In this document: positions 25,911 to 53,261 of the stretch, piece by piece
How the letters are laid out: every line of letters begins with the position of its first letter
Numbering within the stretch: the first letter of the stretch is position 1
Assembly (NCBI GenBank): GCA_006226415.1
Contig: SBGZ01000085.1
Coordinates: forward strand, 29,348 to 93,347
Direction of reading: 5' to 3'
Length of the DNA stretch: 64,000 nt
Origin: Alphaproteobacteria bacterium
Lineage (GTDB): Bacteria; Pseudomonadota; Alphaproteobacteria; M2410
Notes under the pieces: generated by a model
The model's database searches: none
Told to the model about the DNA's origin: nothing
The model's input: the letters and a program-made list of their open reading frames with translations, nothing else
Position numbers and translations under genes: made by a program

Positions 25911-27557
25911 CTAATTGGGCCAATAAATATATTCATCATCTTCCGCCTCCGGCTCCGCCAAAGTCTTGTCAATCGATATGGGCATTTGAACGAAGGACTG
26001 CCACAAGGGTTCAGCTTGATCGGCATTATGTGCCTCAAGTTTCGCCCGCAAGTCGGCCACCACCTCGGGCCGCGCCTCGGCAAGATTGTTTTGCTCGGTC
26101 GGATCGACGCTCAGGTCATAAAGCCAGACTTTGCGCGGATTGTCAGAAACTTGCATCTTCCAATTGTCTGACATGACGGCTTGATAGAACCCTTCACGCC
26201 AGAAAATAGTGCGTGACTGCGGATTGCTTAGTTGCGCCCGAATATCCATGCCGTCAATGACCCGGTCGGCGGGCAATGTGCCCCCACCCGCCGCAACCGC
26301 CGTGGGCATAATGTCGAGATGGCTGACCGGCGCATCCACCACCTGCCCGCCCTCAATGGCAGCCGGCCAGGAGAGGATCATGGGCACATGAGTACCACCT
26401 TCAAACAAGGTAAGTTTCCAGCCGCGATAGGGTCTGTTGATATCCGGCAGGCCGATATACCCCGCACCGCCATTGTCGCTTGTGAAAATGATCAACGTAT
26501 TGTCGGCAATCCCATTTTGCTCTAACGCATCAAGAACCTTGCCCAGGCTCCGATCGAGGGAGCGCACCATGGCCGCATAGACCCGCAGCCGCTCGTCCTG
26601 GATGTCAGAAAGCGCGTCATAATCGGCCTTTGAGGCCTGCAACGGCGTATGCACGCCCCAATGCGCCAGATAAAGAAAGAACGGACGGTTTTGGTTTGCG
26701 TCGATCACTTTTACCGCATTGTCCGTGAAGTAATCGGTCAGATAGCCTTCCGGCTTGAACCGGGCGCTGTTGTTGAAGGTGACGGCATATTGCATGGAGG
26801 CCCAGAGGAAACGGTCAATCGCATCAAAATCCTGTTTGGAATTGACCACATTTGGATCATTCTCCGGCAGGTAAAGCCCACTGGCCATGAGCAGGCTCTC
26901 ATCAAACCCTTGCGCGGTCGGGCGGAAGCTTTCCGACCGGCCCAAATGCCACTTGCCAATATGGGCCGTGTAATAACCCTGAGCTTTGAGAAGTTCGGCC
27001 ACTGTGACTTCGGACCCCACCATGCCCATATCCTCAAAATGAGGCATCTGGTCCATGATCTCATAATCAAAAATGTTCTTGCGCAGTCTTCCATCAACTG
27101 AGTTGAGCAGAGACCCAATTTTTCCCATCCCGCCTGGCGTGGGCGTGAACTCAAAACCAAAGCGCGTCGAATAACGCCCTGTCATGATCATCGCCCGTGA
27201 CGGCGCACAGACCGCATTACCCGCATAGGCATTGTTAAAACGCACGCCCTGCGCCGCCAAACGGTCAAAGTTGGGTGTTGGCACGCGGCCACCTGCGACC
27301 CCACCGCCATAGGTCTGAATGTCATTAAACCCCAAGTCATCGGTCAGAAAGACGATGATGTTGGGAGGCCGTTGATCGGATGGAACCGGAGCTGTTGTCG
27401 GCCCTTGCTGCCAAACCACCTCCTCTGTCGGGCCTATCGGGTTCTTGATTCGGTTCATCAACCCAACCCCTGCCACCATAAGATTGATACGGTAGACATA
27501 ACCCAGTCCAGCGCCGACAAGCGCAACCGCCATCAGCCCGATGAAAATCCTGCGCAT
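25911..27557 (-). CDS. Sulfatase (formylglycine-type arylsulfatase family)
   Basis: 548 residues with an N-terminal membrane or signal helix (5-30). The sulfatase signature CAPSRAMIMTGR places the Cys to be converted to formylglycine at residue 117, and metal-binding Asp residues lie at 73-74 in FLTDDLGFND. Later conserved segments are HIGKWHLGRSE and TSDNGGAGYIG. It hydrolyses sulfate esters, probably in the periplasm. Maturation needs a formylglycine-generating enzyme or anSME, neither of which is visible in this window. In its operon it is followed by GST and metallo-hydrolase genes and preceded by acyl-CoA dehydrogenases. Confidence 0.94.
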   Translation of the reverse strand: MRRIFIGLMAVALVGAGLGYVYRINLMVAGVGLMNRIKNPIGPTEEVVWQQGPTTAPVPSDQRPPNIIVFLTDDLGFNDIQTYGGGVAGGRVPTPNFDRLAAQGVRFNNAYAGNAVCAPSRAMIMTGRYSTRFGFEFTPTPGGMGKIGSLLNSVDGRLRKNIFDYEIMDQMPHFEDMGMVGSEVTVAELLKAQGYYTAHIGKWHLGRSESFRPTAQGFDESLLMASGLYLPENDPNVVNSKQDFDAIDRFLWASMQYAVTFNNSARFKPEGYLTDYFTDNAVKVIDANQNRPFFLYLAHWGVHTPLQASKADYDALSDIQDERLRVYAAMVRSLDRSLGKVLDALEQNGIADNTLIIFTSDNGGAGYIGLPDINRPYRGWKLTLFEGGTHVPMILSWPAAIEGGQVVDAPVSHLDIMPTAVAAGGGTLPADRVIDGMDIRAQLSNPQSRTIFWREGFYQAVMSDNWKMQVSDNPRKVWLYDLSVDPTEQNNLAEARPEVVADLRAKLEAHNADQAEPLWQSFVQMPISIDKTLAEPEAEDDEYIYWPN

Positions 27558-27571
27558 ATCAAAGACCCTCC

Positions 27572-28183
27572 TCAGGTCGGCACACGGGGGATCACCCCGG
27601 CAATGGAAAGAAAAAGAAGCGCCAGGATAAGGCGCGGATCACCGAGATTAATTTTCGGCGTAAATGGAAAAGCCAGCGTGCGCTCCAGCGATGCAAGCTT
27701 AAAGTCATGCGGGGCCTTAAACGCAGGATCCGAAGCAATGGCCACGAGATCCCGCCGCGAGCGATAGCGCACAAGCCCCGCCGCTTTCCAATCGTCAGCA
27801 CCCTCAATGCCCACCCGGTCCATGGCAGGGGATACGATGGGGCCGAAAAGCACCGGATGGCAGGCCCGCTTTAAAAGGGCTGGCATCATATGCGCCATAT
27901 AGCGCGCCATCGCTGCTTGTCCGCTGAGTGTCTCCCCGCGAACCGTCACCTCACCATCGGCCACATCCAAAAGGTTGACCATGATGATCTGGCGGCCGTC
28001 ATCTTCTTCCATGAAGCGCTGGATCATCGCAAGACGCGCGGGCGATGCGCCCCCCTCCGCAAACTTTTCCAAAACCGCTCTGATCTCGTCGGGCTTCAGG
28101 GGTCCGGCCAGATTTGTATACCAGAGGAAAAACACCCCATAGATCACAGCCAGGCCAATCCAGACCCAATAGACCATTTGCAT
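27572..28183 (-). CDS. Membrane protein with a DUF1330-like domain
   Basis: 203 residues. One N-terminal transmembrane helix (3-23) and a hydrophobic C-terminus (about 183-198) flank a soluble part. That part has MVNLLDVADGEVTVRGE, a YMAHMMPALLKRACHPV segment and LVRYRSRRDLVAIASDPAF, a pattern like DUF1330 and related dimeric ferredoxin-like proteins. No function is known. It lies between an acyl-CoA dehydrogenase gene and the sulfatase gene and is probably co-transcribed. Confidence 0.68.
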   Translation of the reverse strand: MQMVYWVWIGLAVIYGVFFLWYTNLAGPLKPDEIRAVLEKFAEGGASPARLAMIQRFMEEDDGRQIIMVNLLDVADGEVTVRGETLSGQAAMARYMAHMMPALLKRACHPVLFGPIVSPAMDRVGIEGADDWKAAGLVRYRSRRDLVAIASDPAFKAPHDFKLASLERTLAFPFTPKINLGDPRLILALLFLSIAGVIPRVPT

Positions 28184-28204
28184 TTGATCCTCCTAAATCG
28201 GCGC

Positions 28205-29332
28205 TCACGATGCGTCAAACAACATGGCCGCCAATCTTTGCCGGTGATAAGCACTATCGCCAAATTGCGACTGTCCCCAGATCGCGCGGCGGCGATAAAG
28301 CTGTGCGTCACAGTCATAGGTAAACCCGAAGCCGCCATGGAACTGAATGGCCCGGTCACCCGCAAAGGAAAGCGCACCCTGCGCCGCCACTTTTGCCATG
28401 CGCACGGCCATATCGCCCTGGGGTCCATCAAATTCGCCCGCCGCGTAGTAAAGGTGGCTGCGCGCACTCTCGATGGCGCAAAGCACATCGACGGTTGGGT
28501 GCTTAAGGGCCTGATAGGAACCGATCAGCCGGTCGAACTGCTTGCGCGTGTTGAGATATTCAACAATGTAATCAAGCGCCGCCTGAGCCGCGCCGCACAT
28601 ATCAGCGGCCAAAAGAAGACAGCCCACCTTGCCGATATGTTTCAAAGCTTCGTGGGTGCGGGCCGGGTCCAGAAGCTGACTTGCCGGCACCGTAATGCCA
28701 TCAAGGGACAGCCCATAAGTGCGCCGGGTTTCATCAATGGAAACCTCACGGCGAAGCGCGCCATCGGGGATCTGCCCCTTCTCCACCAGAACAAGCGCCG
28801 GGGCGCCTTCAAGAAGAAGGGAGACAATGAGCACCTCTGCCCCCGCCCCATTGACCACGGCGCATTTGCTCCCCGACAAGCGCAGACTGTCACCATCGCG
28901 GGTAGCGACTGCGTCAGGCGCGCCAAGGTTCCATTCTCCGCTTGGCTCATAAAAGGCGCAGGCGCCAAGAGTGCCACTCGCCAGCTTTGGCAGCCATTCT
29001 TGCTTTTGCGCTTCCGTGCCACCGGCCAGCAAGGCTTGTCCCGTCAAGGTGACCGCATAAAAGGGCGTCGCCATCAAATGCCGCCCCATGGGCTCGGCGA
29101 GGGTCACAACTTCCGCAAGCGAAAGACCGATCCCCCCGTATTCTTCTGGCAGGGCCACACCGAGCCAGCCCAGATCCACCATCTCTTGCCAAATATCCCC
29201 ATCGTACCCGAGGTCGTCCTCAATCAAGGCACGCACGGTTTTGATGGGCGATTTATCCCGGGCAAAATTGATCGCGACTTCAAGAAGCTGCTCTTGCTCT
29301 TCGCTAAAAGAGATCGTGACTTTTTCGCTCAT
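28205..29332 (-). CDS. Acyl-CoA dehydrogenase family protein (second subunit of a pair)
   Basis: 375 residues: N-terminal helical domain (EEYGGIGLSLAEV), middle beta domain (CAFYEPSGEWNLGAP), and C-terminal helical domain (DYIVEYLNTRKQFDRLIGSYQALKH, then QFHGGFGFTYDCDAQLYRR). It is FAD-dependent and oxidises acyl-CoA thioesters. It lies 12 bases after a second acyl-CoA dehydrogenase. Tandem pairs of this type form alpha2beta2 enzymes in sterol side-chain degradation, where one subunit lacks the catalytic base. Which subunit does so here needs an alignment. Confidence 0.9.
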   Translation of the reverse strand: MSEKVTISFSEEQEQLLEVAINFARDKSPIKTVRALIEDDLGYDGDIWQEMVDLGWLGVALPEEYGGIGLSLAEVVTLAEPMGRHLMATPFYAVTLTGQALLAGGTEAQKQEWLPKLASGTLGACAFYEPSGEWNLGAPDAVATRDGDSLRLSGSKCAVVNGAGAEVLIVSLLLEGAPALVLVEKGQIPDGALRREVSIDETRRTYGLSLDGITVPASQLLDPARTHEALKHIGKVGCLLLAADMCGAAQAALDYIVEYLNTRKQFDRLIGSYQALKHPTVDVLCAIESARSHLYYAAGEFDGPQGDMAVRMAKVAAQGALSFAGDRAIQFHGGFGFTYDCDAQLYRRRAIWGQSQFGDSAYHRQRLAAMLFDAS

Positions 29333-29344
29333 GTCCCGCCCTCC

Positions 29345-30550
29345 TTAGCTCTTGGGCAGGCCAAGGACCCGCTCGCCAATGATGTTTTGTTGGATCTGAC
29401 TGGTGCCCCCGCCAATGGTTGCCGAGAAGGCATTAAAATAAGCCCGGTGCCAAAGCCCTTTATCAACCGCGCCCGGGTCCCCCACATAAAAGGCGCCATT
29501 GGTGCCTTGAAGCGAGAGGGCATATTCATTCATTTCCCGGGTCAGCTCGGTAATCAAATATTTGCCCGAAATCGAAATCGCATGCGGGCGGTCCTGGGTC
29601 AGCGCCTTATGCGCCGAGCGGGCTGAATTTAGTCGCACGGATCTCTCGCGCATGACAAATTTCACCAGCTGATCGCGCACCAGCGGGTCTTCGATGGCGG
29701 GTTTGCCGCCACGCTTAGAACGCCGTGCCAAGTCAATCAGATGAGAGGATTCACGTTGCATCTGCGCGTGACCGCCGGCCTGACCGCCCGAGGCCCCACG
29801 CTCAAACATCAAAGTCGCCATGGCAACTTTCCAGCCATTGCCTTCGCCGCCAATCAGGGTTGAGGCGGGAATGCGCGCGTCCGTAAAGAAAGTTTGGTTG
29901 AAACCATATTCACCGGTCATTTTTTTGATCGGGACGACATCAATACCCGGCACATCCATGGGCGCCAAAAAGAAAGAGAGGCCTTCATATTTGCTGTTGG
30001 CTTCAGGGTTGGAGCGCGCCAGCAAAATCATATGCTTGGCGTGGCGTCCCAGACTGGTCCAGATCTTTGACCCGTTAAGAACAAACTCATCCCCATCACG
30101 CTCGGCCTTGAGCTGCGCATTGCCAAGGTCCGATCCATGATCCGGCTCAGAAAAGCCCTGACACCAGATTTCTTCCGCCGAGAGGATGTTTGGAATGTAG
30201 CGCTTCTTTTGTTCCTCCGACCCCATCATCAAAATAAGCGGGCCCGCCCAATTAAGGCCAATGGTGTTGACCATGAAGGGCACTTGTTGGCGCACCATCT
30301 CGCGGGTTACCACATTTTGCCAGGCCTGATCCATGCCGCGCCCGCCATAGGCCTCCGGCCAGGCCATGCCGAGATAACCCGCCTCATAGACTTTGTTTTG
30401 CCAATCTCTCAGGAAATAGAACTGCTCATCGGTCCCCACTTCCATAAAACTTTGCGGCAGAAGGAAATCAGGTTCCGGCGGTCGGTTCTCTTCAAACCAG
30501 GCCTTGACCTCACCGCGAAACGCTTCAAGTTCTTTTTCTGTAGGAGCCAT
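29345..30550 (-). CDS. Acyl-CoA dehydrogenase family protein (first subunit of a pair)
   Basis: 401 residues from ATG 30550, with GGAGG 10 bases upstream; the frame opens to 30607 but would overlap the GST gene. It has AWPEAYGGRGMDQAW in the N-terminal domain, WCQGFSEPDHGSDLG in the FAD/substrate loop, TSLGRHAKHMILLAR, and a C-terminal GGGTSQIQQNIIGERVLGLP typical of FadE-type long or bulky-substrate dehydrogenases. It begins 5 bases after the GST stop and is the first dehydrogenase of the pair. Confidence 0.92.
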   Translation of the reverse strand: MAPTEKELEAFRGEVKAWFEENRPPEPDFLLPQSFMEVGTDEQFYFLRDWQNKVYEAGYLGMAWPEAYGGRGMDQAWQNVVTREMVRQQVPFMVNTIGLNWAGPLILMMGSEEQKKRYIPNILSAEEIWCQGFSEPDHGSDLGNAQLKAERDGDEFVLNGSKIWTSLGRHAKHMILLARSNPEANSKYEGLSFFLAPMDVPGIDVVPIKKMTGEYGFNQTFFTDARIPASTLIGGEGNGWKVAMATLMFERGASGGQAGGHAQMQRESSHLIDLARRSKRGGKPAIEDPLVRDQLVKFVMRERSVRLNSARSAHKALTQDRPHAISISGKYLITELTREMNEYALSLQGTNGAFYVGDPGAVDKGLWHRAYFNAFSATIGGGTSQIQQNIIGERVLGLPKS

Positions 30551-30555
30551 GGAAA

Positions 30556-31170
30556 TTATACCTCCGTTGCCCGGATGAAAGCAGGCCGCGCCGAAACCCG
30601 CTCCCAATAGGCTTTGATGTTAGGTGTGAAGACTTCGTCGATGCCAAGGGATTTGGCGAGCACCAGAGCATAGGCGACCGAAATATCGGCAATCGTAAAA
30701 CGACCGGCCGCCAGATAATCCCTGTCCCCAAGAGCCGTCTCAACAGAGCGCATGCGCGCCAAAAACCATTTGCGATAATCCTCAACCACCTGCGGCAGAC
30801 GCCGCTCTTCCGGTTCCAGCACCGTGTAGCGCAAGACCAAAGTCTGCGGAAAGGTCAGCGTCGCATCAGAGCGATAAAGCCAATTGAGGTAGACCCCATA
30901 GTCCGGTTCGTCCGGGCGCACCGCTAGGTCGGTGGGCCCCTGAGTTTCCACAAGGTAGTGACAGATGCCGGTCGATTCGGTCATCTCCACATCCCCGTGT
31001 TTAAAAAAGGGAACCGTCCCAATCGGGTTCATCTCCTTGTAGCCCTCGTGCAGAAAACGCGGCGGGAACTTCATGGAAATAAGCTCATAGTCGAGCCCCA
31101 GCTCTTCCAGCGTCCAGAGTGGGCGCACCGAGCGGGACCCCTTGCAATGATAAAGGGTCATGGGTTTCAT
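30556..31170 (-). CDS. Glutathione S-transferase
   Basis: 204 residues from ATG 31170, behind a GGGAGG site about 10 bases upstream; the longer open frame to 31359 is unlikely. The N-terminal thioredoxin domain has LYHCKGSRSVRPLWTLEELG (Ser/Arg in the glutathione site) and PIGTVPFFKHGDVEMTESTGI. The C-terminal helical domain has YLAAGRFTIADISVAYAL. It appears to be the first gene of the catabolic operon running to 23704. Confidence 0.9.
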   Translation of the reverse strand: MKPMTLYHCKGSRSVRPLWTLEELGLDYELISMKFPPRFLHEGYKEMNPIGTVPFFKHGDVEMTESTGICHYLVETQGPTDLAVRPDEPDYGVYLNWLYRSDATLTFPQTLVLRYTVLEPEERRLPQVVEDYRKWFLARMRSVETALGDRDYLAAGRFTIADISVAYALVLAKSLGIDEVFTPNIKAYWERVSARPAFIRATEV

Positions 31171-31376
31171 GGGGTCTACGTCCTCCCTTGCCGACCTCAT
31201 TGATCCTTCCCCCGGGCCTTTCTTTTGCGAAGGCTTTTTGTCGCGGGAAAGCATGGGCCCATCTCGCCATGAATCGGGAGCCTTGTCCAGCTTTGGCCCC
31301 CTCTCTGGTCGGATCGCACAAAAAAGCGGCGGACTGTCACCAATCCGCCGCCAGATCATCCTCTCATAAAGCGAGG

Positions 31377-32234
31377 TTACTTCTTTTGATTGAGAGATTT
31401 TGCATCCAGGATCATATCAAACCCTTGCATATTGGCCGGGATGACCACCACAGATCCGCCACTGTCCGCGAAGCTGAGCAGGGCCGTGTTGATCTCGTGC
31501 TGGAGATATTCCGGGGTCAGGCTTTCATTGATGATCCGGTTGGCCTCGGCAACACCCTTTGAGCGTTCAATCTCAATTTGTGCGTCTTGTCGGGCAATAT
31601 CTACTTCGAGCTTTTTCGCTTCGAGTTTCTTTTCGTTCTGCACCGCGAGCTGGATCGACTGCTCAATAGAGGGGTCGGTATTCAGAGCTCGGATAATGAC
31701 ACGGGTAATCGTAAAGATACCAGGGTCTGATCTGTCCAACTTAGCCTGAAGACGTTCTGCAATTGCAATCGCCAACTGGTCGCGGCTTTTGTGAAGCTCA
31801 AGGCTCTCAATCTTTGAAACCGCATCATAAGCCGCGCCGCGCGCTTCCTGATGGACCAGGCCATAGGCCGGATACCAAGCGCCATCTGAGCCGCGGGCCC
31901 TTGTGCCGGCATATTTGATTTCCGTCTCGGCAATCGCCGTTGGCATGACCTTGTAGTAAACCGTGACGTCGAGGTCCTTCAGGGACAGGTTGTCCGCCGC
32001 CTTGGGCTTAAGGTCTTCCAAAGTGAAGTTGATCTCTTTGCCGACATAGATGTCTTTGTGCGTGATAATCGGCAATTTCAAATGAATGCCTTCACCAAGT
32101 TCATTCAGCTTCACTTTGCCAAGCGTGCGCTCAACCGCAATGTGTCCCGTTTCCACAGTGTAGACACTGCTCAGAAAAAACATCGCAACGAAAACGAGGG
32201 CGATCCCTCCAAATATCCGTCCGAGAACTTTCAT
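31377..32234 (-). CDS. Prohibitin/SPFH (band 7) domain membrane protein
   Basis: 285 residues. One N-terminal transmembrane helix (about 5-24), then an SPFH domain with VETGHIAVERTLGKV and LKDLDVTVYYKVMPTAIAET. A helical coiled-coil follows (QNEKKLEAKKLEVDIARQDA, SKGVAEANRIINESL). It probably forms large rings at the inner membrane and associates with proteases such as FtsH. ATG 32234 has AGGA 6 bases upstream; ATG 32252 with GGAGG is an equally possible start. It appears monocistronic. Confidence 0.85.
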   Translation of the reverse strand: MKVLGRIFGGIALVFVAMFFLSSVYTVETGHIAVERTLGKVKLNELGEGIHLKLPIITHKDIYVGKEINFTLEDLKPKAADNLSLKDLDVTVYYKVMPTAIAETEIKYAGTRARGSDGAWYPAYGLVHQEARGAAYDAVSKIESLELHKSRDQLAIAIAERLQAKLDRSDPGIFTITRVIIRALNTDPSIEQSIQLAVQNEKKLEAKKLEVDIARQDAQIEIERSKGVAEANRIINESLTPEYLQHEINTALLSFADSGGSVVVIPANMQGFDMILDAKSLNQKK

Positions 32235-32314
32235 GGTTTGTCCTTTTATCATAATTCCTCCATAGGGCGACTTCTCGAAATTTTTGCACCCATAGGTTAT
32301 GTATGCATCAGCCG

Positions 32315-32336
32315 CCGATTTTCAAGTGAAAATCGG
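32315..32336. other. Perfect 9-base hairpin between halogenase and prohibitin genes
   Basis: CCGATTTTC (32315-32323) and GAAAATCGG (32328-32336) flank a loop AAGT. It lies 36 bases past the halogenase stop, but no clean T-run follows on the minus strand. It may stabilise or end the halogenase transcript. Confidence 0.45.
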
Positions 32337-32372
32337 AAAACCATTTTTATTTCAAGAATTTAGTCGAAAACT

Positions 32373-33911
32373 CTAGGAGTTGTAAATCGCTGTCACCAGC
32401 TCTCGGTGATCGGGCAACCGCCGAACATCCACTTCTGCTTTCCGCGTGTTTTGCGCGGCCCGCAGCTTGGCAAAATCCAAATCTGAAAACCAGGCTTCCT
32501 GCCCTTTGAGGTCCGGCAGATACTCCATGCCAAACAAGATCTGATGATAGCTGGTCGGGCCAAATGTTGGCGCATGGATCGGGATATCCTCAATCACCAT
32601 GGGGCGATGACGCCACGCCTCAAGATAATTTTGAAGCCGGTCCGAAATTGTTTCCGGCTGACGATTTTCGATCCAGAAGTCGCTGTCGTCCCGGCGAGAA
32701 ATGCAATAGTGCAGCTTGATAAAGTCAAATGTTGTCTCAAACCAGGCACTCATGCGCTTGTTAAACTCAGACGCCATAAACGTCATGTCCCCTTGACGGG
32801 AAAACGTGTGGCAAAATCTGGAAAGTGAGAGCTCTACCTGGTGGATGCCTGTCGACTCCAGCGGCTCGATAAATCCCGAAGCAAGCCCAATGGACAAACA
32901 ATTTTTAACCCAGGGTTTCTCGCGATAGCCGATCCGCATCTCCAGCTTCCGGGCATTAAGACCATCGCTCAGCGGCCCGGCATATTCCCGCAAGGTCTTT
33001 TCCGCCTCATCATCGCTGATATGCCGGCTTGAATAGACATGTCCGATCCCGCGCCGCTCAACAAGGCCAATGTCCCAGATCCAGCCATTGCTTTTCGCCG
33101 TCGAAGTCGTGAACGGTCGCACCGGCGCCTCAGGCGTTTCGTAAGGGATCTGTACTGTCACCGCCCGGTCGCAAAACAACATATCCGTGCGATCAAGAAA
33201 GGGAGACCCGAGCTTCTTCTCAATCAGAAAGGCGCCGAACCCGGAGCAATCAATGAAAAGATCTGCGACCAAATCCTCTTGATCCTTCACCTTCAATCGT
33301 TCAATCGCCCCATCTTCGCCAACAACAACCTCGCTAACATGGCCGATGCGATGCTCAACGCCATCCGCCGTCCCAATGGATTTCAGCAGCGATGCAAATC
33401 GCCCCGCATCAAAGTGATAAGCATAATTTAGTCTTTGCGGCCCCGGGGCCTCGCCGAACACGAAGGGCCCACGACCCGCCTCACAAACCATGCCCTGCGA
33501 GGTTATATAATCGACATAGCTCTTATGGTTTTGCTCGCGCGTGAGAAGCCAATACCCAGCAGCTTCTTCGCCCTTAACCTGAAAAGGCCTTTGAAAGGCG
33601 TGGTAGAAGCTGTTGCGCCGTCCGTTCTCAGGTAAATGCAGCCAATCATCAAACCGAATGGCCTGCTTAAAGGTGGCCGAGGTCTCTCTCATGAATCGAG
33701 GCTCGTCCAGTCCAAAAAAATTGATGACTTTTCGAATTGTCGGGATGGTCGCTTCCCCGACACCAATGGTGCCCACGTCACTCGATTCGATCAAGGTAAC
33801 CTGAACCGATCCCGGCTGACTGGATTGAAAATACCTCGCCAGATAGGCCGCACTCAACCATCCGGCTGAACCGCCACCGACAACAGCAATTTTGTTAATT
33901 TGCTTCGTCAT
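32373..33911 (-). CDS. Flavin-dependent tryptophan halogenase family protein
   Basis: 512 residues from ATG 33911 (GGGGGG a few bases upstream; a GTG at 33950 overlapping the RND stop is also in frame). The FAD-binding GGGSAGW is at 12-18, then GVGEATIPT near 50, and TSATFKQAIRFDDW places a Lys where PrnA has its catalytic Lys. The WxWxI motif is present as WIWDIG. Proteins of this family are often found with TonB receptors and carbohydrate or aromatic uptake genes; here it follows an RND efflux pair. Halogenation of a small aromatic or indole is possible, but the true substrate is unknown. Confidence 0.9.
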   Translation of the reverse strand: MTKQINKIAVVGGGSAGWLSAAYLARYFQSSQPGSVQVTLIESSDVGTIGVGEATIPTIRKVINFFGLDEPRFMRETSATFKQAIRFDDWLHLPENGRRNSFYHAFQRPFQVKGEEAAGYWLLTREQNHKSYVDYITSQGMVCEAGRGPFVFGEAPGPQRLNYAYHFDAGRFASLLKSIGTADGVEHRIGHVSEVVVGEDGAIERLKVKDQEDLVADLFIDCSGFGAFLIEKKLGSPFLDRTDMLFCDRAVTVQIPYETPEAPVRPFTTSTAKSNGWIWDIGLVERRGIGHVYSSRHISDDEAEKTLREYAGPLSDGLNARKLEMRIGYREKPWVKNCLSIGLASGFIEPLESTGIHQVELSLSRFCHTFSRQGDMTFMASEFNKRMSAWFETTFDFIKLHYCISRRDDSDFWIENRQPETISDRLQNYLEAWRHRPMVIEDIPIHAPTFGPTSYHQILFGMEYLPDLKGQEAWFSDLDFAKLRAAQNTRKAEVDVRRLPDHRELVTAIYNS

Positions 33912-33946
33912 TGCCCCCCGCAAATTGAATATTCTGCCCGCCTTGA

Positions 33947-36900
33947 TCACTCACCCGGAAGATGGTGTTCATGCCCCTTATCACCAGGTCGCACCAACCT
34001 CCAGAGCCAGTCCAGGCCCCGCTTGATATCTTCAACGATGAGAACATTTGTCGGCACCATGATCAAGGTAATTACCGTGGCAAACAGAACGCCGAACCCA
34101 AGTGAAACCGCCATCGGGATAAGAAACTGAGACGACTTGGATTGATCAAGCATCAAAGGCAACAGCCCAAAGAAAGTTGTCACAGATGTCAGAAACACGG
34201 GACGGAACCGCGCGACCCCTGCGTTCAACACTGCATGCTCAACCCTTTCGCCCGCCCGTGTCCGTTGATTAATATAATCAACCAGCACAAGGCTATCATT
34301 GACCAAAACGCCTAGAAGCGCCATGAGCCCCAATACGCTAAGGAAGGAAATATATATCCCCAAGATCCAGTGCCCCACCACGGCGCCAATCAAACCAAAG
34401 GGAATAACGGACATAATCACGATGGGCTGCGAATAAGACTTCAAGGGCAGAGCTAACAGACAATAGATGGCAAAGAGCACGCCAAAGAAAGCCATCTGCA
34501 TGCTGCCCATGGCCTCCTGTTGTTGTTTGGCCTCGCCTTCCATGGAATAGGAAATGCCCGGATATTGCATCAGAAGATTGTCGATATAATCCCTGATGTC
34601 ACCCATGAGGACCGTCATATTGGTTTCTTCTTTATCCACATCCGCCGTCACCGTCAGCACCCGGTATCGGTCGACCCGGCGGATCTGACTTGGTCCCTTA
34701 CTCGGGGTCAGGGCTGCCACATGACTGAGCGGCACCTGGGCGCCGCTGGGTGTACGGATCAACATCTCTTCAAGAGTTTCCAGTGTGCTGCGCTCTGATT
34801 GTGGAAATCGCACAATGACGCGAATGTCATCCCGTCCGCGTTGAATGCGCTGCACTTGAATACCCTTAAAGGCCTGCCCGACCTGCCGCGCAACGTCAGA
34901 GCGCGTCAGCCCAAGAACATGGCCTTGTGGTGTGACTTCAATTTTGAGCTCTTCCTTGCCGTCGGACATACTGTCGGCAATTTCAAAGACGGTTGGATAG
35001 GTCGCAAGTCGCTCTTTGATACGGTCCCCCACCTCATTCAGCGTATCAAGAGACGTCCCGCTCAGCTGAACCTCCACCGGATTGCCGGGTCGGAAGTGCG
35101 AAGCTCTGAAATTAAGCGCCTCGGCGCCCGGCACATTCCCAATCATGCCGCGCCACTCTTGTAGAAGTTCACCAGCAGAAATTTTGCTCAGACTGCTCGG
35201 GCGCTGTTCAGCAGACATCACCTGAAACCGAACCCGTCCCCGGTTGGAAGCATTGGAGGAGCGCTGCCATGTCGCGCCCGTAATGGTCAAAATATCTTCA
35301 ATCGGGCTAAGACCGGTTGTGTCATCGCGATATTTTTCCTGAAGCTCCTCCGCCGCTTGATACATGCGTTGAATATAGGCATCCGTCACTTCAAAAGGCG
35401 TGCCCACCGGCATGGTGAGCGAGGCTGTCGCTCTGTCGGCCTCAATCGGCGGAAAGAATATCCACCGGGTCCACCCAAACGAGATCAGCAACAAGATCAG
35501 AACAAAGACTCCCACAAAGCCAGAAAGCGTTGCATAGCGATTTTCCGTCGTCAGGCGTAGGAGCGGCCTGTAATACTTCAGGACCCAAGCCTCAAACCCG
35601 TCGGCGAACCGCTGTTGCCAGCGCTCTACCTTGTTGAGCTTGCTGTCATCCTTGGAAAGATGAACATGCTTAAGGTGTGCGGGCAGGACAAATTTCGATT
35701 CAATAAGAGAAAACAGAAGTACCGGAATCACGACCGCCGCAATGGGTGAAAACCAGCGCCCCATATCACCGCCCACCAGGGCAATCGGCGCAAAGGCGAC
35801 AACCGTGGTCAACACCCCAAAGGTGACCGGAACCGCAACCTCCTTGGTGCCCTTAATGGCGGCCTCAAGGCCTGTTTCTGTCGTGCGCAGATGACTGTAG
35901 ACATTTTCGCCGGTCACAATGGCATCATCGACCACGATACCCAGCACCACAATAAATCCAAAGGCACTCATCATATTCAGGCTGATGTCCATGTAACTCA
36001 TGACAACAACCGCCCCCAGGAAACTCACCGGAATGCCGACAAATACCCACATAGCGATCTTGGGGCGCAGGAACAACGCCAGGAGCAGGAGAACAAGTGC
36101 GCCGCCCTGAAGAGCGCTTGACCCCAAAATGCCCAGACGGTCTTTCAAGACTTCGGAATCGTCGTCCCAATAGGAAAGCGTCATGCCCTCGGGCAGAGAG
36201 GTCTGTTTGGCATCAATATAATCTCTTACCGCCTTGGCAACCTCCAGTGCGCTTTGATTGCCAACGCGGTGGATGTTGATGAACGCAGCCTGCTGGCCAT
36301 TATAGTTGACCTTAAGAGAGCCTTCTTCAAAAGAGTCATTAACAGCCGCCACATCCGACAGGCGGATGATGGTTCCGTCCGGGTTGGTCTTGACGGGAAT
36401 ATTCTCAAAATCTGTCCGCCGATAGGCCTGGCCCTTCGACCGGATCAACACATCGCCGCCCGCCGCCTTCAGGTTACCGGCGGAAATATCCAGAGAGCTG
36501 CTTTGGATAGCGCTGGCGATATCAGACAGGGTCAGCCCCAGGTCCCGCAACCGGTCCTGACTTGCCTCAATCGCAATCTCATACTTGCGCACCCCGCCTA
36601 GCTCAGCCTGGCTGACCGCGTCGAGCCGCAAAAGGTCATCACGCACCTGCTCGGCAAACCGCAGGATTTCCTCCTCATGGTGCGCGCCCGACACGACAAC
36701 GTCGATAACCGGCATTTTCCAGATCGTTGCGCTGATAACGGGCTTTTCAGCCTCTGCCGGAAACGTGTTGATGGCATCGACCCGGCTCTTGACCTGCTCA
36801 AGGATGTCATTGGCGTCATAGTCGGGATCGACCTTCAGGCTGACGGATGTCGACCCTTCAACCGAGGTGCTTTCGATGCGCTCAATCCCCGGCAGATCCT

Positions 36901-37111
36901 GCACAGCTTCTTCGATCCGCGTCGCAATACCCAGTTCCACATCCTCCGGCGTCCCGCCGCGCAGCGACACCGCGACATTGATGTATTCCGGATCCGCCCG
37001 AGGAAAGACCTCCAGGGTCAATTGGGTCTTAATGGAAATGAGGCCCGTCACGATGATGACAAACATCAAAAGATTGGCGGCAACAGAATTTTTGGCAAAC
37101 CACTCAATCAT
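33947..37111 (-). CDS. RND efflux transporter permease (AcrB/MexB type)
   Basis: A 1054-residue inner membrane pump with about 12 membrane segments in two homologous halves: N-terminal anchor IEWFAKNSVAANLLMFVIIV, the first large periplasmic loop, and proton-relay helices around GIVVDDAIVTGENVYSHLR (two Asp in TM4). C-terminal repeats end at a basic tail. It belongs to the subgroup with GVLVNDSLVLVDYIN in TM10. It starts 4 bases before the membrane fusion protein stop (ATGA overlap), so both are in one operon. No outer membrane TolC-type gene is adjacent. Confidence 0.94.
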   Translation of the reverse strand: MIEWFAKNSVAANLLMFVIIVTGLISIKTQLTLEVFPRADPEYINVAVSLRGGTPEDVELGIATRIEEAVQDLPGIERIESTSVEGSTSVSLKVDPDYDANDILEQVKSRVDAINTFPAEAEKPVISATIWKMPVIDVVVSGAHHEEEILRFAEQVRDDLLRLDAVSQAELGGVRKYEIAIEASQDRLRDLGLTLSDIASAIQSSSLDISAGNLKAAGGDVLIRSKGQAYRRTDFENIPVKTNPDGTIIRLSDVAAVNDSFEEGSLKVNYNGQQAAFINIHRVGNQSALEVAKAVRDYIDAKQTSLPEGMTLSYWDDDSEVLKDRLGILGSSALQGGALVLLLLALFLRPKIAMWVFVGIPVSFLGAVVVMSYMDISLNMMSAFGFIVVLGIVVDDAIVTGENVYSHLRTTETGLEAAIKGTKEVAVPVTFGVLTTVVAFAPIALVGGDMGRWFSPIAAVVIPVLLFSLIESKFVLPAHLKHVHLSKDDSKLNKVERWQQRFADGFEAWVLKYYRPLLRLTTENRYATLSGFVGVFVLILLLISFGWTRWIFFPPIEADRATASLTMPVGTPFEVTDAYIQRMYQAAEELQEKYRDDTTGLSPIEDILTITGATWQRSSNASNRGRVRFQVMSAEQRPSSLSKISAGELLQEWRGMIGNVPGAEALNFRASHFRPGNPVEVQLSGTSLDTLNEVGDRIKERLATYPTVFEIADSMSDGKEELKIEVTPQGHVLGLTRSDVARQVGQAFKGIQVQRIQRGRDDIRVIVRFPQSERSTLETLEEMLIRTPSGAQVPLSHVAALTPSKGPSQIRRVDRYRVLTVTADVDKEETNMTVLMGDIRDYIDNLLMQYPGISYSMEGEAKQQQEAMGSMQMAFFGVLFAIYCLLALPLKSYSQPIVIMSVIPFGLIGAVVGHWILGIYISFLSVLGLMALLGVLVNDSLVLVDYINQRTRAGERVEHAVLNAGVARFRPVFLTSVTTFFGLLPLMLDQSKSSQFLIPMAVSLGFGVLFATVITLIMVPTNVLIVEDIKRGLDWLWRLVRPGDKGHEHHLPGE

Positions 37112-38349
37112 GACGGAACCTTCTCCAAAGCCGGTTTGGCGCCTTGTTCCTGTGAAGAGGTCTCAGCGTCTTTTGCGCTTTCGCCAGCCACCTTGACCCG
37201 GGTCCCCGAGGTCACTTGCCCCAATGGTGTGAGAACCAATTGGTCGCCAGGCGCAAGCCCGGACGTGACGAGAGCGACATGCGAATTCTGCCAGGCAATT
37301 TCCAAATCCCTGCGTTGCAGAACACCGTCCACGGCGGTGTAAACATAAGTTCCCTGATAAACCGTCGCGACCGGGACTGTGACCGCTTTGGGGATCAGGC
37401 GGCCTTCGATCGTGGCGGTGACATATTCACCTATCTTAAGAGGGATGGTGCCATCGTCAGCGCCGGCAAACGGGTCATCCACCTGCGCCACCACGTGCAA
37501 TTGCCGCGCGGTTTCGTCAATGGCACTTTCCGTGCGAACAATATGGGCCGTCCAGGTTTGCTTTGCGCCCAGCCGTGATTGTAATTCCACGCGGGGACCC
37601 ACAGGCGTTTCCCCCGATGTTCCTGCGAATTGTTCCGGCAAATCAATGAACCCAAGGTCATTGTTGTTGATCGGCAACCGCACTTCCACATTGTCGGTCG
37701 CATAGACCTCTGCCACTTGGGTATTAGTCGAAACAACCTGTCCGACATCGACAAACTTCTTCAAAAGTCGACCGTCAAAGGGAGCCGTGATCTGTGTACG
37801 CTCCAGCGCGAGTTCGGCCTTTTCCAAAGAAGCTTCCGCTGAGGCCACGGTGGCCTCCGCCGCCATGAGTTGAGGCTTGCGCAAAACCAGATCATTGGGC
37901 GCTTGTGTATAACCGAGCGCATACCACTCTTCTTGCGCACGATCCGCCAGCGCCTTTTGCTCTTCATATTGCCGCATGGCATCCAGAAGTGTCGCCCGGG
38001 CAATTTTCACATTGGCATCATAGTCCCTGTTATCAAGCTTGAGCAGCACCTCGCCCTTCTTGAAGAAACCACCATCACGAAATTGGGGATTGAGCCAAAG
38101 CACCTGTCCGCTCACCTGGGCCACGAGGACACTCTGGGTCTGCGGCCGCACCGTACCATAACTTTGCAACTCAATCTGGAAGGGGCCTTCTGCCACCACC
38201 ATGGTCTCCACGGTGATTCTCGGCCCACTGGGCGGCGGCCGGCGGTGCGGCTCCGGAGCCATTGCGACAATCACCACCCCAACAATACCGACAAGACCAA
38301 TAATGGCCAGCGGGGCGATCACTTTGGGGCTCATCAAAAAATTTGTCAT
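37108..38349 (-). CDS. RND efflux periplasmic adaptor (membrane fusion protein)
   Basis: 413 residues from ATG 38349 (a GTG at 38355 is also in frame). N-terminal membrane anchor (about 8-29), then the barrel-sandwich half-motif VLVAQVSGQVLWLNPQFRDG, a helical hairpin, the second half TQITAPFDGRLLKKFVDVGQ, and beta-barrel domains. A C-terminal extension rich in Glu/Lys/Ser (AESAKDAETSSQEQ) may be disordered. It pairs with the downstream RND permease and the halogenase gene. Confidence 0.93.
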   Translation of the reverse strand: MTNFLMSPKVIAPLAIIGLVGIVGVVIVAMAPEPHRRPPPSGPRITVETMVVAEGPFQIELQSYGTVRPQTQSVLVAQVSGQVLWLNPQFRDGGFFKKGEVLLKLDNRDYDANVKIARATLLDAMRQYEEQKALADRAQEEWYALGYTQAPNDLVLRKPQLMAAEATVASAEASLEKAELALERTQITAPFDGRLLKKFVDVGQVVSTNTQVAEVYATDNVEVRLPINNNDLGFIDLPEQFAGTSGETPVGPRVELQSRLGAKQTWTAHIVRTESAIDETARQLHVVAQVDDPFAGADDGTIPLKIGEYVTATIEGRLIPKAVTVPVATVYQGTYVYTAVDGVLQRRDLEIAWQNSHVALVTSGLAPGDQLVLTPLGQVTSGTRVKVAGESAKDAETSSQEQGAKPALEKVPS

Positions 38350-38713
38350 AAACACTAGCTACTTCAAGCAAAAGGGCTGAATTTTCCGGCGAGCCCCCCC
38401 CCAAAGTCTGGCCAGACAATCCTATACCCTTATTGAACGATCCAAGGCACAATTTCCAGCTACAGATAGCAGAGATTTCGACATCATTTCTGCTATTTTT
38501 TGCCTGTTTTCCCAAGTTCAGGTCACAAATGCGGCATTTTTTGCCCGCGCCGGAACGGCTTCAAGCTACAATCTGATCCTGACAGGCCACGCCAAAACGG
38601 TTGAATGGCTTGCACTCGCCCCCTAAGGCCAAGTATGACCCAAAGGGAAAGGCCTCGGAAAATGACCCCGAGTGCCAAGAAACAGCGCCTAGCCTGCGAA
38701 GAGGAACCACCAG
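38350..38713. other. Divergent intergenic region between the RND adaptor and psd
   Basis: 364 bases without a convincing gene. The psd ribosome site GAGGAA lies at its right end. No strong hairpin or consensus promoter pair was recognised. The open frame at 38523-38720 (minus) and that at 38601-38909 (plus) look like chance. Confidence 0.4.
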
Positions 38714-39388
38714 ATGTCACTTGCTGACGCCGTCATTAAACCCATGCACCCGGAAGGGCGCAAATTCGTCGCCGCCTTCGCAGCGGTCACTTTCCTGCTC
38801 TTCCTGGTTTCCAATTTTCTCGGTTGGGTCGGGATTGGTCTCACAGTCTGGTGCTACTATTTCTTCCGGGATCCGGAGCGGGTCACCCCGAGACGCAAGG
38901 ATCTCGTGATCTCCCCCGCAGACGGGGTCGTTTCACTGATCGAAAAAGCAACACCGCCCCCCGAGCTTGAGCTGGAAACCGGACCGCTGACCCGCGTCTC
39001 CATCTTCATGAATGTCTTCAATTGCCACGTGAACCGCGCCCCTGCCGAAGGACGCGTACGCCGCATCGCCTATCACCCCGGTAAGTTTCTCAATGCCTCC
39101 CTCGATAAGGCCAGCGAGGACAATGAACGTAATTCCCTTCATTTCAAATTGCCCGATGAACGCGATCTCATTGTGGTGCAGATTGCCGGTCTCGTTGCCC
39201 GGCGCATCGTCTGCTTTGTCAAGGAAGGCGCCGCCATGGAAACCGGCGAGCGCTTTGGCCTCATCCGCTTCGGCTCGCGTGTGGACGTTTATCTGCCCAA
39301 TGGCGTGTCACCCTTGGTGGAAGTCGGTCAAACCATGATTGCCGGTGAAACAGTTCTGGCGAGCCTCTCATCAGGTCACAAGGAATAA
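38714..39388 (+). CDS. psd: Phosphatidylserine decarboxylase (short form)
   Basis: 224 residues. Two N-terminal hydrophobic segments (about 20-48), then [41 protein letters not shown]. The self-cleaving Gly-Ser site is in [12 protein letters not shown], where the pyruvoyl group forms. It makes phosphatidylethanolamine from the PssA product. It starts the psd-pssA operon; the five-base spacing to pssA supports co-transcription. Confidence 0.95.
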
Positions 39389-39393
39389 CGCCG

Positions 39394-40158
39394 ATGCACG
39401 GAAACTCGGAACGCCCGCGCACTTCTGAGCTGCCCCTTATTCAGCTCCTGCCGAATTTCTTGACCATCGCGGCCATTTGCGCAGGCCTCACGGCCATCCG
39501 TTTCGGCTTTCAGGGCAATTACGAGCGCGCTGTGCTTCTCATCCTGGCCGCCGCCATCCTTGATGGGCTTGATGGCCGCCTGGCGCGAGCGCTGAAAAGT
39601 GACAGCAAGATGGGAGCGGAACTCGATTCGCTGGCCGATTTCCTGAACTTCGGCATCGCGCCGCCCCTCGTCATCTACTTCTGGGCGCTGCAGGACACCA
39701 AATCCATGGGCTGGATGGCGGTACTGACCTATGCGGTCTGCTGCGTCGTGCGCCTCGCCCGTTTTAACGTCACGGCGAAGGCCGAACAGGAAGAGGGCCA
39801 TAGCCGCAGTGACTATTTTGTCGGCGTGCCTTCGCCCGCTGGCGCCATGCTAGTCATGCTCCCCATGTTCATGTCGTTCTCCATCGCCACAGAGGTTGTC
39901 TTCCATGTCGGCGTCATCATGGGAAACATGGTGCTCATCGGCTTGCTTCTCATCAGCCGCATTCCCACCTGGTCCTTTAAAGCCATCACTATTTCGCGGC
40001 AGAATGTGAAATTCATACTTGTCGGCTTTGCCTTCCTGGCCGCCGCGCTCATGACATACGCCTGGGTGACGCTGGTGGTCTTATGCCTGGCTTATGTTGC
40101 CGGCGTTGTCTGGGCCCTGGCGTCCGGTAAAGTACCGCGCAAGCACATCAAGCTCTAA
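39394..40158 (+). CDS. pssA: CDP-diacylglycerol-serine O-phosphatidyltransferase
   Basis: A 254-residue multi-span membrane protein of the CDP-alcohol phosphatidyltransferase family. The motif DGLDGRLARALKSDSKMGAE, followed by LDSLAD, carries the D-G-x2-A-R-x8-G-x3-D-x3-D residues. PNFLTIAAICAGLTAI precedes it. It makes phosphatidylserine for Psd, so together they give the PE branch. The next gene starts 12 bases later. Confidence 0.95.
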   Translation: MHGNSERPRTSELPLIQLLPNFLTIAAICAGLTAIRFGFQGNYERAVLLILAAAILDGLDGRLARALKSDSKMGAELDSLADFLNFGIAPPLVIYFWALQDTKSMGWMAVLTYAVCCVVRLARFNVTAKAEQEEGHSRSDYFVGVPSPAGAMLVMLPMFMSFSIATEVVFHVGVIMGNMVLIGLLLISRIPTWSFKAITISRQNVKFILVGFAFLAAALMTYAWVTLVVLCLAYVAGVVWALASGKVPRKHIKL

Positions 40159-40170
40159 GGGCGCCTTTTT

Positions 40171-41097
40171 ATGAACCCTGAAACGGAGATCTTCGTTGCA
40201 AACCTGGAAATGCGCAACAAGCTTCCGTTTCTTTTCAAGTTAGCCTCTTGTCTCGCCGGCAGGAAGATACGGGGAGCCTACAGAATCTACCATAGCGCCC
40301 TGCGCCTGAACGATGCGCAGGCCATATATCCCTTTACCTTGCCCGACAAAACGACCCTATGGGCCCCCCTTGATTGGCCGGGCATTATTCACCCCCAAGT
40401 CTTTGCCCGCTACGAGCCCGATGCGATCGAAGCCTTCTCAAATCTTGCCAACCAAACAGGCTGCCCCGTCCACCTGATTGATTGCGGAGCTGACATCGGC
40501 GTCTTCACACGGCTGACAATGTGCCAATTGGATAATCTATCCTCTATCACAGCGATTGAACCCAACCCGCGCTCCTATGCCATCTTGGAGAAAAACCTGT
40601 CGGAAACAGAACTGCCGACACGAGCCATCTGCGGCGCCGTTTCCAACTTCTCCGGATATGGCCGGCTCGTCGCTCCCAAGTCAGACACGCATGCGCACGC
40701 CATGTACATCGAAGAAAGCGCGGGCCCCACACAAACCCCAATATGCCGGATTGACGACCTGGACCTGCCGCCTGGCGACACAATCGCGATGAAAGTGGAT
40801 GTCGAAGGGGCCGAAACCAAGGTCCTTATGGGCGCGCAGCGCACATTGAAGGAGGCGGCGCATTTCGTTCTCCAAATCGAAGCGCACCCGCAGGTATGCC
40901 GCAGAACAGGCAGCGACCCGGTTGAGTTCCTGCAGCTCATCAGCGAAATCCGTCCAGTCACCTGCACCGCCTTTGTCGAGAAGACGCGGGCGCGATACGA
41001 AGTGACGGATTTCCAAACACCCCTTTTCGAACAACTGGACAATAACAACATTTACGATCTCGTTCTGCATTCAGTAGAAAGTTTAAATCCGACATGA
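40171..41097 (+). CDS. FkbM family methyltransferase
   Basis: 308 residues. The SAM-binding core starts with HLIDCGADIGVFTRLTMC (motif I, about 110-127), then ITAIEPNPRSYAILEKNL and a C-terminal MKVDVEGAETKVLMGAQRTL typical of FkbM O-methyltransferases. Targets are often polysaccharides or secondary metabolites. It begins 12 bases after pssA, and its stop overlaps the amidohydrolase start (ATGA), so it bridges the lipid genes to the downstream catabolic-looking genes. Confidence 0.88.
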   Translation: MNPETEIFVANLEMRNKLPFLFKLASCLAGRKIRGAYRIYHSALRLNDAQAIYPFTLPDKTTLWAPLDWPGIIHPQVFARYEPDAIEAFSNLANQTGCPVHLIDCGADIGVFTRLTMCQLDNLSSITAIEPNPRSYAILEKNLSETELPTRAICGAVSNFSGYGRLVAPKSDTHAHAMYIEESAGPTQTPICRIDDLDLPPGDTIAMKVDVEGAETKVLMGAQRTLKEAAHFVLQIEAHPQVCRRTGSDPVEFLQLISEIRPVTCTAFVEKTRARYEVTDFQTPLFEQLDNNNIYDLVLHSVESLNPT

Positions 41098-42743
41098 CCC
41101 AAATCACCGTCTTTCCCGCCAAGAAGATCATCACCATGAACCCGGCGCAGCCAGAGGCAACAGCGGTGGCGGTGCGAGACGGGCGCATACTGGAAGTCGG
41201 CACCCTTGAAAGCTTAAGGCCCTGGCTGGAGGCTTTCCCGCACAAAATTGATGACCGGTTTAAAGATAAATTCCTGATGCCGGGCTTTATCGACCCGCAT
41301 CTGCACCCCTCCATGGCCGCGGTGCTTTTGCCCATGCGTTTTGTCACCGCTATGGAATGGCGCCTGCCCTGGGAGATCGTCGCGCCGGTGACAACGCCGG
41401 AGGCTTTCCTTAAACGCGTCCGAGACATCGACGCGGAGATGGAAAGCCCTGAGGCGCCGCTCTTCATTTGGGGCTACCACCAACTCTGGCATGGGAAAAT
41501 GCGCCGCGCGGCCTTGGACGACATCTCAAAGACCCGGCCCATCGTCATCTGGCATCGCTCCTTCCATGAGCTCTACATGAACAGCGCCTGCCTTAAATGG
41601 GCCGGGATTGATGAGGCCAGCGCAGGCGGCCATCACCAGGTAGACATTGAGAACGGTCATTTCTTTGAAAACGGCCTCCGCCTCGCCATGGCCAAGCTCA
41701 ATTCTTACCTCCTAAGCCCGGCTCACTACCACGAGGGCTTGAAGCGCCTCGCCCGGGTTGCACATTTTGGCGGGCATACCACCCTCGGCGACATGGCCGT
41801 GGGCATCTTTAACTTCGAGATGGAATGGCAAACCACCAAGACCTTCCTCGACACCGACGAGACCCCCTTCCGGGTTCAAATGATCCCCGCCAGCAATATT
41901 CTCTTTGGCGAAAAGGGCTCCAACGAAGCCGCCCTGGACTTCATCAAGACCTTGCCGGAGCGCAACACCAATCGCTTGCGCTTTTACGATCACGTCAAGC
42001 TTTTCACCGATGGCGCCTTTTTCTCGCAGCTCATGCAGCTCAAAGCGCCAGGCTATATCGACGGCCACCACGGCGAATGGCTCATGCCGCCGGAGCATTT
42101 CGAAGCCGCCGCGCGCACTTACTGGAACGCCGGTTACAAAATTCATGTTCACTGCACCGGCGATCTTGGCGTCGATCTGGCGCTCGACACTTTGGCCAAG
42201 CTGCAGGAGGAAAAGCCGCGCTTTGGCCACCGCTTCACCATTGAGCACTTCGGCCTGTCAACACCGGAGCAGGTGCGCCGCATGAAGGAGCTGGGGGCGC
42301 TTGCCTCTGTCAACATCTATTACTTCCATGAGCTTTCCGGCACCTATGCCCGCGAGGGGCTTGGATTTGAACGGGCGAGCCAAATGGCGCGTGTTGGCTC
42401 TCTCCTGCGCGAAGGCGTGCCCTTTGCCTTCCATTCCGATTTCACCATGGCCCCGGCCCTGCCCTTAAACAGCGCATCCGTCGCTGCAACCCGCATCAAT
42501 GCGGAGGGCACGCTCATGGGCGAAGACGAGCGCGTGCCGGTTCATGATGCTTTAAAAGCGATCACCTCAGAAGCGGCCTGGATCTTAGGCCTCGAAGATG
42601 AGATCGGCTCCATACGCGCGGGTAAAAAGGCCGACTTTACCGTGCTGGAAGAAGACCCCTATCAGGTCGCGCCGGAATCTTTGAATGACATTCCCATCTG
42701 GGGCACCATCTTTGAAGGCACCCCCCACGAGATCGTCCGATGA
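41094..42743 (+). CDS. Amidohydrolase, YtcJ-like
   Basis: 549 residues: N-terminal amidohydrolase beta-sandwich segment (DGRILEVGTLES), metal site MPGFIDPHLHPSMA (HxH), later HDH-type segments IHVHCTGDLGVDLALD, RFTIEHFG and FHSDFTMAP, and the C-terminal GSIRAGKKADFTVLEEDP. It is the amidohydrolase-3 subgroup. No signal peptide, so it acts in the cytoplasm. It overlaps FkbM upstream and the CobW-type GTPase downstream by ATGA at both ends. Confidence 0.9.
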   Translation: MTQITVFPAKKIITMNPAQPEATAVAVRDGRILEVGTLESLRPWLEAFPHKIDDRFKDKFLMPGFIDPHLHPSMAAVLLPMRFVTAMEWRLPWEIVAPVTTPEAFLKRVRDIDAEMESPEAPLFIWGYHQLWHGKMRRAALDDISKTRPIVIWHRSFHELYMNSACLKWAGIDEASAGGHHQVDIENGHFFENGLRLAMAKLNSYLLSPAHYHEGLKRLARVAHFGGHTTLGDMAVGIFNFEMEWQTTKTFLDTDETPFRVQMIPASNILFGEKGSNEAALDFIKTLPERNTNRLRFYDHVKLFTDGAFFSQLMQLKAPGYIDGHHGEWLMPPEHFEAAARTYWNAGYKIHVHCTGDLGVDLALDTLAKLQEEKPRFGHRFTIEHFGLSTPEQVRRMKELGALASVNIYYFHELSGTYAREGLGFERASQMARVGSLLREGVPFAFHSDFTMAPALPLNSASVAATRINAEGTLMGEDERVPVHDALKAITSEAAWILGLEDEIGSIRAGKKADFTVLEEDPYQVAPESLNDIPIWGTIFEGTPHEIVR

Positions 42744-43627
42744 CCACTCCGCCGCCCATCCCCACCGCCATCCCCGTCACTATCATTGGCGGTTATCTCG
42801 GCGCCGGCAAAACCACGCTGATCAATGAGCTGTTAAGCACCCATGACGGGCCGCCGCTCACCGTGCTCGTCAATGATTTTGGCGCCATCAATATCGATAA
42901 GGATTTGATCGCCGCCCACGCCGGCGACACCCTTGAGCTCACCAACGGCTGCGTCTGTTGTTCCATCACCGACAGTCTGACCGACACCCTGCTGCGCCTG
43001 ACCGAGCGCGAGGAAAAACCCCATCACATTGTGATTGAAGCAAGCGGCGCCGCGCATCCGGCCAAGATCGCTCTTACCGCCAGCAATTGGGGCGGCCTCG
43101 GCACGGCGCAAAGCCTTGTGCTGGTGGATGCCCTCACCCTAACGCAAAAAGAACGCGACAAATATGTGGGCGCCCTTATTCAGGACCAGATCCGCGAGGC
43201 GGATGTCCTCCTTCTGACCAAGCAGGATCTGGCACCCGAAGAAACAAAGGCCGCCGCACGCACGCGTCTTAATGCATTGAACGCGGCAGCCCTTCTCTTG
43301 GCGTCCTCCAACGAGGCGCGCATTATTTCAGGCGCGATGCCCACCGCCGCACCGCGCCAGCTCGAAGACAGCAAGGAACCACAGCTCTGGAGTTTTACGC
43401 TTCAAGGGGGCCCGCACGAGCGCAAAGCCTTTGACGCGCGCCTCAAAGACATCGCGCCCCATTGCGAGCGCATCAAAGGCACTGTCGCCTATACGGACGG
43501 CTCGGCCGAAGAACTTCAATGGGCGGGCGAGCGCTGGGCCCGCCAAGCCACACGAGCCTCTACCACGCGGCTGGTCTTCATCGGCGCTGAACGGATCGAT
43601 CTGGAGGCCTGGCGCGGCCGGTTTTGA
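42740..43627 (+). CDS. CobW/COG0523-type metal chaperone GTPase
   Basis: 295 residues. Walker A GGYLGAGKTT at 17-26, the metal-site CVCC (71-74) in NGCVCCSI, then IEASGAAHPAKI and a C-terminal CobW_C domain with WSFTLQGG. GTP-driven metal (Zn, Co or Fe) insertion is the known family role. Because it is sandwiched between a metal-dependent amidohydrolase and a P450, serving the amidohydrolase is plausible. It lacks the His-rich stretch of some zinc members. Confidence 0.9.
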   Translation: MTTPPPIPTAIPVTIIGGYLGAGKTTLINELLSTHDGPPLTVLVNDFGAINIDKDLIAAHAGDTLELTNGCVCCSITDSLTDTLLRLTEREEKPHHIVIEASGAAHPAKIALTASNWGGLGTAQSLVLVDALTLTQKERDKYVGALIQDQIREADVLLLTKQDLAPEETKAAARTRLNALNAAALLLASSNEARIISGAMPTAAPRQLEDSKEPQLWSFTLQGGPHERKAFDARLKDIAPHCERIKGTVAYTDGSAEELQWAGERWARQATRASTTRLVFIGAERIDLEAWRGRF

Positions 43628-50089: not shown

Positions 50090-50166
50090 GGCCCCGTAGC
50101 TCAGGTGGATAGAGCACCAGATTCCTAATCTGGGGGCCACAGGTTCGAATCCTGTCGGGGTCGCCA
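50090..50166 (+). tRNA. tRNA-Arg, anticodon CCT (CCU)
   Basis: The cloverleaf folds with a 7-base acceptor stem (GGCCCCG with CGGGGTC, one G-U pair), D arm with TAGCTCAGG, anticodon stem CCAGA/TCTGG with loop TT-CCT-AA, T arm ACAGG/CCTGT with TTCGAAT, discriminator G and encoded CCA. The anticodon is at 50124-50126. It decodes AGG. Confidence 0.95.
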
Positions 50167-51124: not shown

Positions 51125-51333
51125 GGATTGATTCGCTTTCGGGCTTTGTTTCAGAAGTGACGATCTAAGCGGCTAACTTAACAGCCCAGGCACTCGTTGC
51201 GAAGACGGATCTCCAATGTACGCACACTTATTGATCTCCCCTTCCTCCCGGGTATAGTGAACGGATCGACTAAACATTGATTCCGGCGCCCCCGCGAAAT
51301 CTTGGGGGGAATATCCAAACAGCAAGGCTCTTG

Positions 51334-53190: not shown

Positions 53191-53261
53191 TGACCGGACA
53201 AATTTTCAATATGCGCGAAAAACCGCAGAAACCCTGACCTATTACTTGGCTGAGGGTCAAA

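Follow-up and report, generated by a model that had tools for sequence, protein, structure and literature searches.

The window, the 64-kb stretch of DNA that was analysed, is part of contig C71 in a 2.45 Mb metagenome bin that is 84% complete. The host is an alphaproteobacterium for which metagenome bins are the sole record. On the minus strand the genes of an RND adaptor, an RND permease and a flavin-dependent halogenase are transcribed in that order, with a divergent psd gene before the adaptor and an SPFH gene after the halogenase. The genes and regulatory elements of the locus are:

38466-38496, no strand assigned: 31-bp inverted repeat ATAGCAGA-N15-TCTGCTAT in the spacer that separates the adaptor gene from the divergent psd gene, followed by T6 on the plus strand
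37108-38349, minus strand: RND periplasmic adaptor (membrane fusion protein) gene, ATG at 38349, 413 residues with an N-terminal membrane anchor
33947-37111, minus strand: RND permease gene, 1054 residues, PF00873 over its full length
32373-33911, minus strand: flavin-dependent halogenase gene, tryptophan-halogenase family, ATG at 33911, 512 residues, PF04820
32315-32336, minus strand: perfect 9-bp hairpin CCGATTTTC-ACTT-GAAAATCGG in the gap between the halogenase and SPFH genes, no T run, fold z -2.3
31377-32252, minus strand: SPFH/Band-7 membrane protein gene, the next gene 3' of the halogenase, PF01145
31325-31352, minus strand: intrinsic terminator 3' of the SPFH gene, a 12-pair stem and then a T run

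The original prediction held that the adaptor and permease genes overlap and that the halogenase follows about 36 bases beyond the permease. The domains and ORF coordinates agree with an overlap of 4 nt, and the distance from the permease stop to the halogenase ATG was measured as 35 nt. The halogenase frame is open up to a GTG at 33950, an alternative start that would overlap the permease gene. The shared strand, the 4-nt overlap and the short gap, an arrangement kept in a sister species, support co-transcription, and no sequence resembling a terminator was called in the gap before the halogenase. We infer that the three genes very probably constitute one minus-strand transcription unit.

The 3' limit of the unit is less clear. 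The SPFH gene is possibly its distal member, read through to the terminator at 31325, or possibly has a promoter of its own; its membership is less certain because a conserved hairpin that lacks a T run, and also a promoter-like stretch, lie before it. This hairpin was found in the sister species as well and may overlap the putative SPFH promoter. The terminator is likewise kept in the sister species, and the 43 nt surrounding it fold with -23.8 kcal/mol (z -5.1). At the other end of the unit, the arms of the 31-bp inverted repeat are identical in both species, the fold z-scores are -4.6 and -5.7, and a search allowing up to 2 mismatches matched nothing but the repeat itself in either genome. 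The repeat may serve as an operator or, alternatively, as a terminator or attenuator acting on the plus strand. An Rfam search of positions 27000-43000 gave no match.

The PF04820 profile matched the halogenase with 448 bits (residues 7-467, profile positions 1-447 of 458), while the NCBIfam matches were all below cut-off. The best PDB matches, 9LU2 (E about 1e-107) and 2PYX (E about 1e-103), aligned over the length of the protein. The GxGxxG flavin loop corresponds to G12-G13-G14-S15-A16-G17, and the catalytic residues, K82 in the motif FKQ and E352 in EPLES, align with those of the solved halogenases. The roles of the catalytic lysine (K79 in PrnA, K83 in BrvH) and of the glutamate (E346 in PrnA) have been described (PMC5945002). 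In the WxWxIP motif W277, W279 and I281 are kept, while the proline is replaced by G282. The flavin loop, K82, E352 and both tryptophans were invariant in all 10 aligned halogenase sequences; a glycine also occupies the last motif position in all 10 and in 2PYX, so that G282 more probably marks a clade variant than a defect. In its full-length domain, flavin loop, catalytic residues and WxW core the protein thus resembles the PF04820 halogenases PrnA, RebH and BrvH as well as 2PYX and 9LU2, and it differs from PrnA, RebH and BrvH in the glycine that it shares with 2PYX. Judged from its sequence, the halogenase belongs to an ordinary known family and is probably active. A genome scan located a flavin reductase candidate away from the halogenase, on contig C10.

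The pump proteins were assigned to ordinary known families by similar profile matches. The adaptor scored 168 bits against TIGR01730 (cut-off 94.9) and also matched PF13437, and the permease matched PF00873 with 572 bits over residues 1-1021 but reached the cut-off of none of the named NCBIfam subfamilies. As in other tripartite RND pumps (MdtB, TriC and MexB are among the nearest solved permeases), adaptor and permease form one unit, the PF00873 domain is full length and the Asp-Asp pair of TM4 is kept (D395-D396). In contrast to those pumps, there is no TolC gene in the unit, and an asparagine replaces the lysine of the AcrB K940 type, as it does in nearly all 21 aligned homologues. It had been claimed that neither TolC nor a TonB receptor lies next to these genes; this was borne out, since no OEP/TolC or TonB-receptor domain was detected among the window ORFs scanned, and contig C71 carries no TonB receptor. 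The assembly has a single OEP/TolC homologue, encoded on contig C44 within the operon of a paralogous RND pump. Among the ORFs of the window that were scanned, Pfam detected no PKS, NRPS or similar pathway, and close to the halogenase there were no genes for making an obvious substrate of that enzyme. As the assembly is 84% complete, a missing TolC gene or substrate pathway is conceivable.

The whole block, with the same neighbours, was present in the sister species on contig SBHG01000160.1 (L034/L054), where the gap before the halogenase is 31 nt and the SPFH gene again adjoins the halogenase. The identities between the two species were 88% for the halogenase, 89% for the permease, 78% for the adaptor, 95% for the psd product and 89% for the SPFH protein. 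The halogenase comparison gave a dN of 0.079 with saturated synonymous change, and the permease a dN/dS of about 0.02 with dS near saturation. Identities of 88% and 89% despite near-saturated synonymous sites indicate that both genes are under strong purifying selection. The flanking gene order is kept between the two species in any case, so that conservation of the block does not distinguish functional from incidental linkage. In two other genomes of the family the pump had no clear orthologue and the SPFH protein no match at the threshold used, which makes the block genus-specific. It was perhaps acquired; the G+C contents of the halogenase (53%) and SPFH (51%) genes differ little from the 55-61% of most neighbours. 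The sister species has, in addition, a second halogenase (L035:17385-18923, minus strand), 49% identical to that of the window, with TPR-sulfotransferase genes and a family-5 solute-binding protein as neighbours; a second copy of this kind was not found in the window's own genome.

Beyond the genus, the census of halogenase loci took the 80 best loci among 84,980 species genomes together with a class sample, giving 98 further loci, and 20 more from a phylum sample, for which 18 kb were examined. There was no RND gene within 2.5 kb of the halogenase at any of the 98 loci, nor anywhere in the 18 kb at the other 20. Thus, the triplet that had been put forward for a conservation check was kept in one congeneric genome and in none of the 118 other halogenase loci (RND gene within 2.5 kb), and the proximity of halogenase homologues to RND genes held inside the genus only. 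A part or the whole of an RND gene was located within about 10 kb at 5 of the 98 loci. TonB receptors, in contrast to pumps, lay within 2.5 kb at 51 or more of the 98, a lower bound since the census relied on a narrow receptor profile that overlooked receptors at the 20 extra loci, and a family-1 glycosidase was often nearby. This pattern suggests that much of the halogenase family works in carbohydrate-uptake loci. The combination of a TonB receptor and a family-1 glycosidase recurred among loci L056-L133, and a family 20 glycosidase was seen in L187.

In the tree, the halogenase groups with L055, from a gammaproteobacterial metagenome-assembled genome (61% identity), and with the second halogenase of the sister species, neither of which has an RND gene beside it. 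L055 is the closest halogenase from outside the genus, and its neighbours are RecQ, methyltransferase and histidine-kinase genes; RND homologues occur at other places in that genome, the best of them 42% identical. Three loci of the Undibacterium type (L087, L096 and L110) were considered as instances of the triplet and rejected, as the pump lies 3.3-6 kb away with genes intervening and is about 26% identical. Their adaptor-RND units, all 3' of the halogenase (L087:14779-19892, L096:13071-18209 and L110:15651-20874), each have a gene before them that, to judge by the start of its protein alone, probably encodes a TetR-type regulator.

Approached from the pump, the result was similar: none of 20 related pump loci had a halogenase, and in all six of those tested a TolC gene lay directly upstream of the adaptor. 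Among the loci scanned, a pump found across the family (the group L159:2471-9663, L158 and L171) has a class I/II aminotransferase gene behind it in L159 and L171, and in L159 a TolC gene precedes the adaptor. A cytochrome P450 gene lies 3' of the pump in L166, which belongs to another lineage.

The three protein families are known, and the arrangement was not met elsewhere among the genomes searched. We tentatively propose that the locus is a genus-specific unit in which an active halogenase would modify a small aromatic compound and the pump would export the product or its precursor through a borrowed channel. A flavin reductase encoded elsewhere would provide FADH2, and the resulting flavin hydroperoxide would oxidise chloride or bromide to hypohalous acid, which K82 and E352 would pass to a small, electron-rich, free aromatic compound in the cytoplasm; an indole- or phenol-like compound is a likelier substrate than tryptophan. 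The proton-driven pump would then take up the halogenated product, or its toxic precursor, in the periplasm or inner membrane and expel it through an outer-membrane channel that another operon provides; the OEP on C44 is the simplest candidate. Pump and halogenase most likely share expression and perhaps a substrate. The link between them that had originally been predicted is favoured by the physical coupling and by the identities of 88% and 89% in the sister species, but it did not recur outside the genus, and functional coupling of the two is possible without being assured. A bolder form is doubtful, that of a minimal module for halogenation and export in which a lone halogenase of an uncharacterised clade and a co-expressed RND pump with no TolC of its own would make and secrete a halogenated small aromatic, a signal or an antibiotic.

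Alternatively, the genes may share an operon and do separate jobs, the pump exporting toxic compounds in general and the halogenase being co-induced for another substrate. Several observations are consistent with this explanation, 1) the RND family is broad and normally has TolC beside it, 2) the enzymes that adjoin related pumps are varied, an aminotransferase in L159 and L171 and a P450 in L166, and 3) the relatives of the halogenase accompany TonB receptors and glycosidases, not pumps. The short distance between permease and halogenase and their equal degree of conservation favour some joint role, however, and we consider separate jobs rather unlikely. It is more unlikely still that the adjacency is incidental, the ancestor of the genus having gained the halogenase gene, or shifted it to a place behind the pump, and its descendants having kept it for reasons unrelated to the pump. 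The restriction of the linkage to the genus, the slightly lower G+C of the halogenase and SPFH genes, the lack of a clear orthologue of pump and SPFH protein in the two other family members and the different contexts of the nearest halogenase kin would all agree with such an origin, but the G+C differences are small and a same-strand spacing of 35 nt within a conserved block is closer than random insertion usually produces. Very improbable is a resistance module, not a biosynthetic one, in which a toxic aromatic entering the cell would be altered by the halogenase and then expelled by the pump; a GST gene nearby and the absence of a biosynthetic cluster among the window ORFs scanned would suit it, but the toxicity of aromatics usually rises rather than falls on halogenation, and the literature searched gave no precedent.

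The proposed export of a halogenated product would fit two precedents. Xanthomonadin and syringomycin are both halogenated and both arise from dedicated biosynthetic clusters, the syringomycin halogenase being of the non-heme iron type. At the locus described here, in contrast, the flavin halogenase stands alone behind the permease. RND proteins have been implicated in the export of the pigment xanthomonadin in Xanthomonas and of the lipopeptide syringomycin (PMC3329529), the latter through PseABC of Pseudomonas syringae, and a similar tie between an RND pump and a halogenated product is proposed here. A literature search found no paper that joins a flavin-dependent halogenase with RND efflux or describes this arrangement, and a search on tryptophan halogenase and TonB returned nothing relevant.

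Many PF04820 halogenases outside the classical antibiotic clusters have no assigned substrate, and many of them adjoin TonB receptors; the present one differs from the known halogenases in being linked to an RND pump rather than to a biosynthetic cluster or a TonB receptor. If the proposal is correct, a halogenase tied to an efflux pump would indicate that its product is secreted and would provide a handle for finding it. The present evidence is a gene arrangement restricted to one genus, which leaves export of a halogenated compound plausible and no firmer.

Elsewhere in the window, beyond a tRNA-Arg gene (50090-50166), two genes adjoin on the plus strand (51277-55440). The first product has weak similarity to the SLATT domain; the second combines an N-terminal TIR-like match with a C-terminal beta-propeller-like match and weakly resembles anti-phage TIR proteins, so the two are a possible defence pair.
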